Shown here: positions 22,820 through 27,168 of the stretch, in pieces
How positions within the stretch are numbered: the stretch's first letter is position 1
How the letters are laid out: each line of letters starts with the position of its first letter
Source of the DNA: Rhodospirillaceae bacterium
GTDB taxonomy: Bacteria; Pseudomonadota; Alphaproteobacteria; CACIAM-22H2
Reading direction: 5' to 3'
NCBI GenBank assembly: GCA_009694125.1
Contig: SHVT01000005.1
Location: forward strand, 1 to 42,801
Length of the DNA: 42,801 nucleotides
Notes under the pieces: generated by a model
Database searches by the model: none
Seen by the model: only the letters and a program-made list of their open reading frames with translations
What the model was told of the DNA's origin: nothing
Position numbers and translations under genes: made by a program

Positions 22820-24220
22820 CTATGCAGCCTCGTCCACGGGCAAGGCCAGATGAAACACAGTACCCGCCGACGAGGACTCCGCCAGTTCAATATCCCCACC
22901 GTGCGCCCGCATCAAGTCGCGCGCGATGGCAAGGCCGAGACCGGTGCCGCCCGGACGGGCCGACCCGGCGAAGGGCTGAAACAGCTTGTTGCGCGCTTTC
23001 GCCGGCACGCCCGGCCCGTCATCGCGCACTTCGACCACCAATCTTCCGGGAATCAGACGGGTTCGCACCTGGACGTTGTTCGCCCCCGCCTCGGCGGCGT
23101 TACGGCCGAGATTGACCAGAACGCGGAACAGCTGCTCGGCGTCGGCTTCGACTTCGACATCGCGATGGACGATGTTCTGCCATTGGGCGCGATTGGCGGT
23201 GAGCAACGCAACGACCTGACCGACATCGTCGATCAACGGCCGAAGAGTGAACCGGCGCATCTTGGGTTGGGGCGGCTGATCGCGCGCGAAATCCAGCGTC
23301 TGGCCGCACAGGGCGACGGCGCGATCGACGGCGCCGAGAAGGTTGGGGGCAAGCTTTTTGACATTGGGGTCGGTGCTGTCGGCGAGCCGGTCGGACAGCA
23401 ATCGGACGGTGGACAGGATGTTGCTGAGATCGTGGTTGATCTTGGTCACGGCCGAACCGAGCGCGGCGAGACGGGCCTGTTGGGCCAGTGCCAACCGCAA
23501 TGCCTCTTGCATGTTGGCAAGCTCGCGCTGCGCGACGCCGATCTCGTCGGTTCGGCGTCCTGGGCGAAGGACGCGGCGCGCATCCTCTGGAGCCTCGCGG
23601 AAGGCGGCGATGCTGTCGATCAGACGGCGCATCGGTCGAACCGTCAACCATTGCAGGCTGAGGAAAACCAGGGTGGCGGTGATCAGCGAAATGACGATCG
23701 ACAGGGCCAAGATACGCTCGGAATAGTCCAGCATCGCCACGCGCATCGGCTCTTCGTCGATGTGGGTCTCGACGACGACGCCGAAATCGAGCGTCGAGTC
23801 GCCCAAGACACGCAGCACTCGGTTCGAGCGTTGAAACAACGTCGCCATCGCGTCGGCGACCAGTTGCGTGGCCGTGGCTTGGCGCAGGTCCACGGTCAGA
23901 TCGGGCGCCGGCGGAGGTTCGGTGACAAGCATGACGCGCAGCCGGCCGGGCCGGTGCAGGATCACCGCATGGGTCTCGGCATGGCGCAAGAGCGCGATGT
24001 TCAACTCCTCGCCAACCATGAAATCCGGCGTCGCCTCCAGCGCCAGCGTCGCAAGCTGGGCCGCGGCGATCCGTTCGGCGAGATATGTCTTTCGGAAATT
24101 CGCGATCGACGGGACATAGATCAGCACCTCGCTGAGCATGACAAAGGCGACGGTCATGACCAGAAGGCGCGCCGACAGCCCAAAGACCACGGGCGGCAGT
24201 TTGCGGGTCGGTCCTAACAC
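22820..24220 (-). CDS. Orphan sensor histidine kinase (HAMP domain)
   Basis: A 466-residue membrane sensor kinase. TM1 is about residues 18-38 and TM2 about 169-189, enclosing a ~130-residue periplasmic sensor region. A HAMP linker (WLTVRPMRRLIDSIAAF) follows. The H-box is AVTKINHDLSNILSTVRLL with phospho-acceptor His263. The ATP-binding domain has NLGRNAAEAGA (N-box), VRDDGPGVP (G1) and GGTGLGLAIARDLM (G2). The KINHDLSNIL form of the H-box marks a kinase subgroup distinct from the common HELRTPL type. No response regulator is adjacent, so the output partner is unknown. A 59-residue membrane peptide follows on the same strand. Confidence 0.9.
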   Translation of the reverse strand: MLGPTRKLPPVVFGLSARLLVMTVAFVMLSEVLIYVPSIANFRKTYLAERIAAAQLATLALEATPDFMVGEELNIALLRHAETHAVILHRPGRLRVMLVTEPPPAPDLTVDLRQATATQLVADAMATLFQRSNRVLRVLGDSTLDFGVVVETHIDEEPMRVAMLDYSERILALSIVISLITATLVFLSLQWLTVRPMRRLIDSIAAFREAPEDARRVLRPGRRTDEIGVAQRELANMQEALRLALAQQARLAALGSAVTKINHDLSNILSTVRLLSDRLADSTDPNVKKLAPNLLGAVDRAVALCGQTLDFARDQPPQPKMRRFTLRPLIDDVGQVVALLTANRAQWQNIVHRDVEVEADAEQLFRVLVNLGRNAAEAGANNVQVRTRLIPGRLVVEVRDDGPGVPAKARNKLFQPFAGSARPGGTGLGLAIARDLMRAHGGDIELAESSSAGTVFHLALPVDEAA

Positions 24221-24287: not shown

Positions 24288-25712
24288 TCATCCGAATCGA
24301 GCCAGAAAACGGACGAGCCGCCGGGTTCGCGGCCCGAAAAGGCTGGGCGCGAAAAAACTCCCCGCGGCGCGCTTGGAAACCTCCCCCAAGGTGGGATAGG
24401 GCACGATCATGCCTGCGACCGCGCCGATCGAGAGGCCCTTTGAAAGGGCCAATACCCAGAGGTTGATGAGTTCACCGGCTTCACGGCCGACGATGGCGGC
24501 GCCCAGGATGCGGCCGCGCGTCGTCGTCACGACCTTGATCATGCCCTCGATGTTGCGCTGGGTGCGGGCGCGGTCGTTTTCGGCGAACGACCAGCGCAGG
24601 ACACGAATGTTCCCGTGGGCCGCACGCGCCTCGTCCTCGGTTTGTCCGACCTGCGCCAGTTCCGGATCGGCATAGGTCACGCGCGGCACCGCGCGATCGT
24701 CGATCCGCGCCGGCAGGCGGAACAGGATGTTGCGCAGCACGATGCCGGCGTGATAGCCGGCGACATGGGTGAATTGGAAGGATCCCGCGACGTCGCCGAT
24801 GGCATAGATGCGGCGATTGGTGGTTCGCAGCCGGCAGTCGACGGTGACGCCGGTCGCGGTATGGGCCACGCCCGCTTCAACCAAACCCAGGCCCGAAATA
24901 TTTGGGCGGCGGCCCACGGCCACCAGAAGGTGGGAGCCGGCAAGCTCATCGGCGACACCCGTCGCGCTCGCCAACCTCAGCCTAACCCCATCGGCGCTGG
25001 GATCGACCCGAACCACGCGCACGCTCTCGCGGATCTCGACCCCTTCGGCGCGCAGCGACCGCCGCACGAATTCGACCAGCTCGGGATCGTCTTTGCCCAG
25101 GATGGACGCCATCTCGACAATGGTGACGCGGGCGCCAAGCCGGCGGTGGGCCTGAGCCAGTTCGATGCCGATGGGACCGCCGCCCAGGACAAGCAAATGC
25201 GGCGGCCGCGTCTTCAAATCAAAGATCGATTCATTGGTGAGGTAGGACACATCCTCAAGACCGGGAATCGGCGGAATGAAGGGCGACGATCCGGTGGCGA
25301 TGACAAATCGCCGGGCCCGGACGATGTCGTTGCCGGCGATCAGTTCCCGCGGGTTCGCAAAACACGCCGTGGCGGCGATGACCCTGACGCCGAGGCCTTC
25401 AAAGCGCTCGGGCGAATCATGGGGCGCGATATCCGCGATGACCCCGTGAACAAAATCGTGGACGCGGCCGAAATCGATCTTCGGCTCGCCGGCATCAACG
25501 CCGAAAAGCGGCGCCCCGCGCACCGCGGCGGCCGCGGCCGCCGCCGCGAGCAGCGATTTTGAGGGCACGCAGCCGGTATTCAGGCAATCGCCGCCCATTC
25601 GGCCACGCTCGATGAGGGCGACCGACGCACCCATTTGAGCGGCGCCGGCGGCCACGGACAGGCCCCCCGACCCACCGCCGATGACACCGATGTCGACCTC
25701 GATGACCGCCAT
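24288..25712 (-). CDS. FAD-dependent pyridine nucleotide-disulfide oxidoreductase (not DLD or MerA)
   Basis: A 474-residue class-I flavoprotein disulfide reductase. The FAD Rossmann fold is GVIGGGSGGLSVAAGAA, and the redox-active disulfide is GGDCLNTGCVPSK (Cys43, Cys48). The NAD(P)-binding fold is LVLGGGPIGIELAQA, and the second FAD motif is RIYAIGDVAG. At the dimer-interface active site the usual HPTLxE becomes YPTLGE: Tyr439 replaces the catalytic His of lipoamide dehydrogenase, while Glu444 is kept. The C-terminus (RRLVRFLARFG) lacks the Cys pair of mercuric reductase. It lies 11 bases downstream of a TVP38/TMEM64 gene. Fusions of these two domains are annotated in other bacteria, so they probably work together, but the substrate is unknown. 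Confidence 0.88.
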   Translation of the reverse strand: MAVIEVDIGVIGGGSGGLSVAAGAAQMGASVALIERGRMGGDCLNTGCVPSKSLLAAAAAAAAVRGAPLFGVDAGEPKIDFGRVHDFVHGVIADIAPHDSPERFEGLGVRVIAATACFANPRELIAGNDIVRARRFVIATGSSPFIPPIPGLEDVSYLTNESIFDLKTRPPHLLVLGGGPIGIELAQAHRRLGARVTIVEMASILGKDDPELVEFVRRSLRAEGVEIRESVRVVRVDPSADGVRLRLASATGVADELAGSHLLVAVGRRPNISGLGLVEAGVAHTATGVTVDCRLRTTNRRIYAIGDVAGSFQFTHVAGYHAGIVLRNILFRLPARIDDRAVPRVTYADPELAQVGQTEDEARAAHGNIRVLRWSFAENDRARTQRNIEGMIKVVTTTRGRILGAAIVGREAGELINLWVLALSKGLSIGAVAGMIVPYPTLGEVSKRAAGSFFAPSLFGPRTRRLVRFLARFG

Positions 25713-25723
25713 GGCGAGCCTGT

Positions 25724-26440
25724 TTAGCGGCCGGCGGTCAAATGCCGAAAGACGACCGGCGAGAGGGCCAGCGCTGCCAGGCCGATCAGCGGGAACAAAA
25801 TCTCGGCCCTGAAAATCGCATGAAGATCCGGCGTGGCGCCTTCGTCGAAGATCATGCCAAGACCGTTGCCGACGCCGGCATAGATAACGGCAGCGGGAAT
25901 GATGCCGATAACCGTCGCCAAGGCGTAGGTAGCGAGGCGTACGTTCAGGAAGGCCGCGGCAAGATTGACGAGCCAGAAAGGAAAAACCGGTATCAAACGC
26001 AGCACGAGGAGGTAGTTGAAGGCGTTTTTCTTGAAACCAGCTTCCACGCGCTTAAGCGTTGGACCGGCGCGGGCGCGTAAGGGTTCTCCCAGCGCAGTCC
26101 GCGCGGCCAGAAAAACCAGGGTCGCGCCCAGCGTCGCGCCGATAATGGCGAAAACGGCGCCCCAAAACGGGCCGAACAGGAACCCCGATGAAACCGTGAG
26201 CAGCGCGGCGCCCGGAATGGAAATTGCCGCCGCGAAAGCGTAAACGAGGGCGAAGGCCGCGCCGGCCCATAGACCGTCGGTTTCCACCCAGCCCCGCAGC
26301 ATCTCTCGATTGTCGCGCAGCGCCGAGAAGGTCAAATAACGATCGAGCCCAAACCACCAAAAGCCGATCAGACCAAGGATCAGCACGGCCAGCGGAACTA
26401 TACGCAGCAGTGTCTTCCGTCGCTTGATCGTTGGCTCCAC
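25724..26440 (-). CDS. TVP38/TMEM64 family (SNARE-associated, DedA-like) membrane protein
   Basis: A polytopic inner-membrane protein of about 238 residues. Hydrophobic segments include LLRIVPLAVLILGLIGFWWF, GLWAGAAFALVYAFAAAISI and a C-terminal pair. The core has the family motif GFLFGPFWGAVFAIIGATLG, with the re-entrant-helix/GxxxG pattern and RLIPVFPFWLVNLAAAF. DedA/TVP38 proteins are linked to lipid flipping and membrane homeostasis. The frame is open to 26578. GTG 26440 is chosen for its GGAG seven bases upstream and because the residues before it are low-complexity; ATG 26557 (277 residues) is the alternative. It is followed after 11 bases by the FAD oxidoreductase and is divergent from rpmH. 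Confidence 0.82.
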   Translation of the reverse strand: MEPTIKRRKTLLRIVPLAVLILGLIGFWWFGLDRYLTFSALRDNREMLRGWVETDGLWAGAAFALVYAFAAAISIPGAALLTVSSGFLFGPFWGAVFAIIGATLGATLVFLAARTALGEPLRARAGPTLKRVEAGFKKNAFNYLLVLRLIPVFPFWLVNLAAAFLNVRLATYALATVIGIIPAAVIYAGVGNGLGMIFDEGATPDLHAIFRAEILFPLIGLAALALSPVVFRHLTAGR

Positions 26441-26564
26441 ATCGTCACTCCGGCTCGGCAGCGCCAGGGGGCCACCGCGATGAGGCACCCTGTTTAGCAC
26501 AGAAGGCGCCCGCGCGAGGGGCACAGGACGCAGCCGGCGCCCGAGAATATCAATCATCCGCGCA

Positions 26565-26593
26565 TTGACTTCGCCCAACCGCGCCCGTATACA
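26565..26593 (+). promoter_or_regulatory. Sigma70-type promoter for the rpmH-rnpA-yidD-yidC operon
   Basis: TTGACT (26565-26570) and TATACA (26588-26593) are separated by exactly 17 bases and lie 54 bases upstream of rpmH. This is the best promoter match in the window and fits the expected strong expression of ribosomal protein L34. Confidence 0.75.
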
Positions 26594-26647: not shown

Positions 26648-26782
26648 GTGAAGCGGACGTATCAGCCCAGCAAGCTCATTCGCAAGCGTCGGCACGGTTT
26701 CCGGACACGCATGGAAACGGTCGGCGGGCGCCGCGTCATTTCCAGTCGCCGATCCAAGGGGCGTAAGCGTCTTTCTGCGTGA
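26648..26782 (+). CDS. rpmH: 50S ribosomal protein L34
   Basis: A 44-residue protein, translated by hand: it starts [18 protein letters not shown] and continues [13 protein letters not shown], ending GRKRLSA. This is the unmistakable L34 sequence, a basic peptide that binds 23S rRNA and is needed for late 50S assembly. The start codon is GTG at 26648, with GGAGA 7-11 bases upstream. The stop overlaps a possible GTG start of rnpA (GTGA at 26779-26782). The conserved order rpmH-rnpA-yidD-yidC marks the classic region near the bacterial origin, although no dnaA or oriC-like sequence is seen here. Confidence 0.97.
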
Positions 26783-26784
26783 CT

Positions 26785-27168
26785 ATGCGCGATGAAGTGG
26801 GCCGGCTTCGCCATCGGCCCGACTTCCTCCGCGTCGCCGGTACGCGCCAGAAAGCGGTCGCCCCCGGCTTGATCCTACAGGTCGGCAAGCGCGGCGACGT
26901 TGGGGACGCACAGCCGGCAATTCCGCGCGTGGGCTTCACGGTGACGCGCAAGGTCGGCTCCGCGGTGGTCCGCAATCGGGCAAGGCGGCGATTGAAAGCG
27001 GCGGCGGCGGCGATTTTCCCCGCCCATGCCCTGCCCGGCCTTGATTATGTGGTGATCGGAAGGGGTGCGACTTTGGGGCGGCCTTTTATTCTTCTGATCG
27101 AGGATTTGACGACGGCCATGCGGCGACTCAACGCTTATCGAAACCAATCCGAGAGTCCGACGGCATGA
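26785..27168 (+). CDS. rnpA: Ribonuclease P protein component
   Basis: The ~127-residue protein subunit of RNase P, which with the rnpB RNA removes tRNA 5' leaders. The start [17 protein letters not shown] and the RNR motif [21 protein letters not shown] are diagnostic. ATG 26785 is used; GTG 26779, overlapping the rpmH stop, would add two residues and may be the coupled start. Its own stop overlaps the yidD start (ATGA). No rnpB gene is seen in this window. Confidence 0.95.

Follow-up and report, generated by a model that had tools for sequence, protein, structure and literature searches.

The window analysed here is a stretch of 42,801 nucleotides, positions 1 to 42,801 of contig SHVT01000005.1 (forward strand) in the Rhodospirillaceae bacterium assembly GCA_009694125.1, a 1.67-Mb draft genome that is 75% complete. 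It carries a gene for a TVP38/TMEM64 membrane protein of the VTT family, followed after 11 bases (25713-25723) by a gene for a flavin-dependent disulfide reductase (Table 1), with the coordinates and spacing that had been given for them in an earlier reading of the window from its letters (the sequence-only reading). A histidine kinase gene begins 67 bases downstream of the flavoprotein gene, and the divergent rnpA gene serves as a landmark that lies outside the TVP38-flavoprotein-kinase unit. The longest TVP38 frame spans 25724-26578; the GTG at 26440 is the likely start, because the frames of two congeners (L005 and L006) begin at the equivalent position. The flavoprotein of a congener is 93% identical to that of the window. 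A scan for promoters and terminators yielded signals no better than chance.

Table 1. Features of the TVP38-flavoprotein locus, with positions in the window.
Feature	Position	Strand	Basis
TVP38/TMEM64 (VTT domain, COG0398-like) inner-membrane protein, 238 amino acids, GTG start	25724..26440	-	PF09335, 87 bits
NAD(P)H flavin disulfide reductase, MerA-like active site, 474 amino acids, ATG start	24288..25712	-	PF07992, 187 bits; PF02852, 89 bits
Redox pair Cys43-x4-Cys48 in GGDCLNTGC (codons: Cys43, 25584-25586; Cys48, 25569-25571)	25569..25586	-	Read from sequence
YPTLGE motif with Tyr439 and Glu444 (codons: Tyr439, 24396-24398; Glu444, 24381-24383)	24381..24398	-	Sequence; alignment to PDB chains
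Membrane histidine kinase, third gene of the conserved unit	22820..24220	-	HATPase_c above cut-off, HisKA weak
rnpA (RNase P protein), divergent landmark upstream of the unit	26779..27168	+	PF00825, 66 bits

The pairing of the TVP38 and flavoprotein genes is real, conserved and often takes the form of a fusion. Among 80 named loci, which are the best of at least 588 candidates and therefore biased towards close relatives, a VTT gene adjoins the flavoprotein gene in 76 (upstream in 64, downstream in 12). Three of the four remaining loci begin no more than 300 bases from a contig end, which leaves Nisaea (L042) as the clear exception. The window's arrangement with a histidine kinase gene downstream on the same strand recurs in 57 of the 80. 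Within the window's order, an ortholog scoring above 500 bits was found in 22 of 23 genomes, and VTT was adjacent in all 20 loci examined. By comparison, 20 paralogue control loci of the same order, all of which carry the lipoamide-dehydrogenase-type HPTL motif, were scanned over about 3 kb, or up to the contig end where that was closer, and none had a VTT gene there.

For a broader view, 150 genomes were sampled evenly across the phylum; the flavoprotein family is present in 80 of them at 400 bits or more, and weaker matches were dropped as other reductases. Sixty-eight places were examined, 65 distinct ones by their sequence and three more (G079, G093 and G151) by coordinates, after exclusion of L183 as not belonging to the family and of L184, L194, L195 and L196 as second fetches. 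VTT is adjacent at 35 and fused at 18 of these places (53/68), and the fused proteins have TVP38 at the N-terminus. Twelve of the 80 places lie outside the examined set, and seven of them have open frames of 716-735 amino acids, as fusions do. Both the existence of annotated fusions and the co-occurrence expected by the sequence-only reading were thus borne out. That many bacteria keep the two genes side by side or as a fusion makes it very probable that they function as a unit. The position beside TVP38 and rnpA could instead be inherited gene order without functional coupling, the enzyme being an ordinary soluble small-disulfide or diaphorase-type reductase. Indeed, the unit stands beside a divergent rnpA in 51 of the 80 named loci, and an adjacent VTT gene is missing from 15 of the 68 examined relatives. 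However, fusions, inverted orders (the 12 loci with VTT downstream) and plasmid copies keep the pair together in unrelated surroundings, and this explanation is considered unlikely. One genome (G006:C322:15430-16842, L149) harbors a second flavoprotein copy with an internal TAG stop that looks decayed; TVP38 and kinase genes still adjoin it.

Of the 96 rows of a maximum-likelihood tree, 88 make up the family, which forms one clade with a support of 99 in the Shimodaira-Hasegawa-like approximate likelihood ratio test (SH-aLRT). This clade unites the flavoproteins whose VTT genes are adjacent with those that are fused, and contains an 18-row subclade (SH-aLRT of 100) in which 15 rows are fused proteins. 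True MerA and lipoamide dehydrogenase (Lpd) sequences fall outside. The tree was built by a quick method, has long branches on the Escherichia coli comparators and represents the window by its congener L024.

Conservation of individual residues was counted over 160 distinct family sequences, which may contain a few places fetched twice and from which the comparators L144, L145, L154 and L183 were left out. Cys48 is present in all 160 sequences and Cys43 in 158, with Arg in the other two; the Asp42 just before Cys43 is conserved in 153. Tyr439 is Tyr in 158 sequences and Phe in two, and Glu444 is kept in 157. The residues noted by the sequence-only reading, as well as its observation that a C-terminal Cys pair is absent, were thus recovered, and the Tyr/Glu pair that it had singled out for a conservation check proved nearly invariant in the family. 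Its statement that the protein is neither an Lpd nor a mercuric reductase agrees with the profile scores. With Lpd, the window flavoprotein has in common the fold, the CxxxxC pair, an NAD-type Glu200 and Glu444. It differs in that Tyr439 takes the place of the His of the His-Glu dyad, and it reaches 337.4 bits on the Lpd profile TIGR01350, below the curated cut-off of 408.8. On the MerA profile TIGR02053, the score is 368.5 against a curated cut-off of 454.45. The best NCBIfam match is NF004991 (PRK06370.1-3, FAD-containing oxidoreductase) with 445.7 bits, below the cut-off of 620, and two fused relatives with 519 and 485 bits likewise remain below it.

The use of Tyr439 as an argument against MerA, in contrast, did not stand. 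Alignment to PDB chains places a Tyr at this position in the MerA chains 5x1y, 4k8d and 1zk7 (PYLT), and the two above-cut-off MerAs of the window's order (L144 and L145) carry it as well. Among E. coli proteins, the position is occupied by His in Lpd, Gor and RclA and by Tyr in SthA. Tyr439 presumably corresponds to the Tyr605 of the MerA literature, if the numbering is that of the Bacillus RC607 MerA. Fold, CxxxxC pair, active-site Tyr and Glu are all common to MerA and the window flavoprotein, which accordingly shows the combination of CxxxxC and Tyr used as a mark of MerA. In the available part of its text, one MerA survey dropped sequences lacking Tyr605/Phe605, a residue described as “required for activity” (PMC7031220). 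The idea that Tyr439 marks a new chemistry was therefore rejected, as Tyr is also found in MerA and SthA.

The differences from MerA lie elsewhere. The true MerAs L144 and L145 end in SCCAA and SCCAG, and the window flavoprotein has no such C-terminal vicinal Cys pair; a CC after the Tyr motif was found in none of 161 full family frames, which were made distinct separately from the set used for residue counts. At the end of the nucleotide-binding strand, Glu200 occupies the NAD-type position in 135 of the 160 family sequences, as does a Glu in E. coli RclA, where L144 and L145 have Phe-Arg. Engineering of glutathione reductase and lipoamide dehydrogenase has established that Glu at this position favours NADH and Arg NADPH, and the cofactor is probably NADH rather than NADPH. 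As judged from its sequence by the tests run, the window flavoprotein is not a MerA, because it scores below the cut-off, has no C-terminal Cys pair, belongs to a family with a usual NAD-type Glu200 and falls into a separate clade.

A related protein has nevertheless been named as a mercuric reductase in rhizobia. The merA1 locus of Sinorhizobium/Ensifer has the same TVP38-flavoprotein-kinase order as the window and lies beside yidC/rpmH. An S. meliloti expression table, in the part available, lists merA1 between SMc01718 (TVP38) and SMc01716 (PMC12445080). The S. meliloti flavoprotein is 51% identical to that of a congener of the window; we infer from the gene order that the CP090106 locus and merA1 are one and the same. 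In E. medicae, the available text calls merA1 a mercuric reductase and gives support from quantitative polymerase chain reaction, with a rise upon exposure to Hg in a sensitive strain under free-living conditions and in the nodules of a tolerant strain (PMC7840509). A later study describes no significant change of merA1 with Hg and credits high tolerance to an acquired Mer operon, although a basic detoxification role is still supposed; TVP38 is not mentioned in its text (PMC11227200). These reports, together with the shared gene order and the MerA-like Tyr439, could be explained by a housekeeping mercuric reductase conferring the proposed basic Hg(II) tolerance, in which Hg(II) would go straight to Cys43/Cys48, Tyr439 would play the part it has in MerA and no C-terminal Cys relay would be involved. 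Such an assignment is improbable, however: the S. meliloti protein, named on expression data in the sources available, shares with the window protein the lack of the Cys pair and, at 351 bits against 454, a score below the MerA cut-off, and the pair is missing from every full frame of the family. In addition, a true MerA coexists with a family protein in two genomes of the window's order (G014 and G022), and the absent response in the later study points in the same direction.

The TVP38 protein of the window exceeds the gathering cut-off of PF09335 (33.9 bits) and has six hydrophobic stretches and no Cys. No conserved Cys was found across 96 TVP38 relatives; Cys occurs in a single alignment column, in 16 of the 96 and not in the window protein. 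Direct disulfide exchange between flavoprotein and TVP38 was rejected on these grounds, and TVP38 is unlikely to be a direct partner in a thiol redox system of the kind that the sequence-only reading had considered. The COG0398 subtype is distinguished by a first re-entrant tip without an acidic residue and a second tip with a missing basic residue. In 16 TVP38 sequences, no Asp or Glu occurs at residues 66-96 and Arg148 is the single invariant basic residue within 146-163, if the re-entrant helices are placed correctly in these segments. A structure model of the window protein, built from the same number of sequences (mean predicted local distance difference test score, pLDDT, of 80), had no Foldseek match below E 0.001, and the sequence had no relative among solved structures at E up to 1; the model's best VIA-align Z of 5.5 was to S-components of energy-coupling factor transporters (root-mean-square deviation 4.6-4.8 over 117-118 residues).

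According to the available text of an mBio article of 2023, COG0398 is the bacterial DedA subfamily nearest to eukaryotic TMEM41B, TMEM64 and VMP1, phospholipid scrambling is suggested as the activity of its members, which are reported to be essential in the model Alphaproteobacteria Caulobacter and Dinoroseobacter, and PF07992/PF02852 are their commonest fusions (PMC10127716). The association of TVP38 and flavoprotein is consequently known, as a fusion and as rhizobial merA1, yet uncharacterised, and no biochemistry of the pair was found in searches of open-licence PMC papers. The description “little-studied” by the sequence-only reading is apt, but the system is not unreported (in the parts available: PMC10127716, PMC7840509, PMC11227200, PMC12445080). 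At NCBI, proteins annotated as “bifunctional TVP38/TMEM64 family protein/FAD-dependent oxidoreductase” consist of the same two domains in the same order as the window pair. One of them (L109) has the GGDC...GC and YPT motifs, and as a group they belong to a sister clade. These proteins differ from the window pair in being fused, in being 40-42% identical to its flavoprotein and, in the records examined, in residing in accessory clusters.

On plasmids, the fused gene has neighbours in varying combinations, among them bufferin-type genes, arsenosugar-named glycosyltransferases, a TIGR03169 oxidoreductase, a Ynj-type ATP-binding cassette (ABC) transporter and a CDP-alcohol phosphatidyltransferase. 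By “bufferin” we understand the DUF2282/DUF692/DUF2063/DoxX gene set, which we take to be so called, and the “arsenosugar” glycosyltransferase names are NCBI labels. Two enterobacterial plasmids (L104 and L108) carry the fused gene with DUF2063/DoxX, a sigma-70 family factor and a Ynj-type ABC transporter; L108 also has DUF692, and the region of L104 is split by an IS150 element. The Ynj-type partners recall the ydjXYZ-ynjABCDEF region of E. coli K-12, which encodes two DedA/TVP38 proteins, the Ynj ABC transporter, the AhpD-like YnjA and the CDP-alcohol phosphatidyltransferase YnjF. Unlike the fused systems, this region has no flavin disulfide reductase, and a 4Fe-4S-type protein, YdjY, is annotated there.

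Two further linkages to the flavoprotein family, those of DUF547 and ArsS, are new here. In the window's order, 11 of 14 copies of DUF547 (PF04784) are found about 3 kb or less from the flavoprotein gene (coordinates compared by eye). In the phylum sample, the two are no more than 3.5 kb apart at 11 of 39 places, where 0.09 would be expected. The flavoprotein family is also present in 30 of the 34 DUF547-bearing genomes of that sample. An alignment of 22 DUF547 proteins revealed an invariant Cys-x4-Cys together with His149, Glu135 and Arg140. At the loci near the pair (L106, L156, L064 and 19 others), the CxxxxC occurs in an NCASxGCP-like context. Signal-peptide-like starts, identified by eye after hand-choosing the start codons, were seen in many, though not all, of 23 DUF547 proteins, which are apparently exported. 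The DUF547 structure model is confident (mean pLDDT 90.8); Foldseek gave no match to it below E 0.001, VIA-align reached a Z of up to 3.7, and no relative of solved structure emerged by sequence at E up to 1. For DUF547 as for TVP38, the missing structural matches do not show new folds.

In the phylum sample, 8 of 70 places have ArsS (TIGR04167) no more than 3.5 kb from the flavoprotein gene, against 0.18 expected. The eight genomes span seven families, the distance is 28 and 44 bases in two of them, and two neighbouring ArsS proteins, with scores of 390 and 414, exceed the cut-off of 300. Of the genomes with the flavoprotein family, 50/80 also have ArsS and 64/80 have TIGR04283, compared with 19/70 and 23/70 of those without. 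The Poisson and Fisher values for these linkages and co-occurrences ignore relatedness. Together with neighbouring genes for a CDP-alcohol phosphatidyltransferase, a nucleoside phosphorylase and TIGR04282/TIGR04283 glycosyltransferases, these findings could be taken to mean that the pair serves the metabolism of arsenosugars or arsenosugar phospholipids, with the reductase acting on a pentavalent arsinoyl group and TVP38 moving the lipid product. As an account of the family, this is very unlikely. Four of the eight linked genomes have no adjacent VTT: outside the window's class, the flavoprotein genes L190, L191, L192 and L194 (genomes G091, G032, G036 and G044) lie 28-1358 bases from ArsS without a neighbouring TVP38 gene. 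TIGR04282/TIGR04283 glycosyltransferases occur at none of the 64 named loci with VTT upstream, and the telling gene names are, as mentioned, database labels. ArsS had no match in the window's draft genome. On contig C59 of that genome (L224 4172-5553), far from the pair, a TIGR04283 glycosyltransferase gene overlaps an apparent TIGR04282 gene, as judged by eye; its location on a different contig likewise argues against an arsenosugar pathway at this locus.

The favoured interpretation, which we consider to have an even chance of being correct, is that the flavin disulfide reductase docks on TVP38, probably depends on NADH and acts at the cytosolic face on a small substrate of the thiol-bound or soft-element kind. 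In this model, the products of both genes would form a single functional unit at the cytoplasmic membrane, in which TVP38, probably a lipid or small-molecule flippase, would carry or dock a cytosolic flavoenzyme that the fold family suggests to be a homodimer. Electrons would pass from the pyridine nucleotide (NADH likelier than NADPH) via flavin adenine dinucleotide to Cys43/Cys48 and reduce a small disulfide, a thiol-bound compound or a soft-element substrate (As, Se, Hg or Cu-thiolate). Tyr439 and Glu444 would line the substrate pocket in place of the His-Glu base of lipoamide dehydrogenase, and TVP38 might supply the substrate from the membrane or take away the product. Docking is suggested by the fusions and operons, and the enzyme class by the fold and the redox pair. 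The assignment of the substrate to the soft-element/thiol class is the weakest step, as it draws on the neighbours of relatives (ArsS, arsenosugar-named glycosyltransferases, bufferin-type plasmid genes and DUF547) and on the MerA-like Tyr; its probability is put at somewhat below even.

Several observations weigh against this interpretation. In the 15 genomes without an adjacent VTT, a search at E 1e-8, which recovered VTT in the positive controls G000, G009 and G031, found none in five and only a remote, lower-scoring match in ten. As 15 of 68 members have no adjacent VTT and five genomes have no VTT match at all, TVP38 is not indispensable, and a strict dependence of the flavoprotein on it was rejected. 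In two loci (L179 and L180, genomes G026 and G081), Arg replaces Cys43 (GGQR), and TVP38 and kinase genes still adjoin. By its sequence, this flavoprotein is incapable of ordinary disulfide exchange, and the retention of its neighbours is not explained by a role as disulfide reductase. Glu200 is absent from 25 of the 160 family sequences. Furthermore, the window's own unit has no soft-element genes nearby, and these links come from relatives. Six of the 11 linked DUF547 cases belong to one genus, so the linked cases are not phylogenetically independent; DUF547 had no match in the window genome and two congeners, and none of the 69 ArsS genomes of the phylum sample is of the window's class. On these grounds, DUF547 and ArsS bear on the family and not directly on this locus.

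A conserved enzyme partner offers a direct biochemical handle on the bacterial role of COG0398 DedA proteins. The family also matters for annotation, as the rhizobial merA1 product is named a mercuric reductase although the C-terminal cysteines found in true MerA are missing from it. The linkages to DUF547 and ArsS suggest testable partners. In a more far-reaching scenario, to which we assign little probability, the pair would be part of a membrane redox-transport machine: NADH would serve to reduce a thiol-bound or soft-element compound in the cytosol, TVP38 would flip the product, and the exported CxxxxC protein of the DUF547 family, where present, would receive it. The substrate would plausibly be an arsenosugar lipid in the ArsS/CDP-alcohol clusters and a small thiol, persulfide or selenol elsewhere. 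If true, this would give DUF547 a role and make TVP38 a transporter that is coupled to a reductase.

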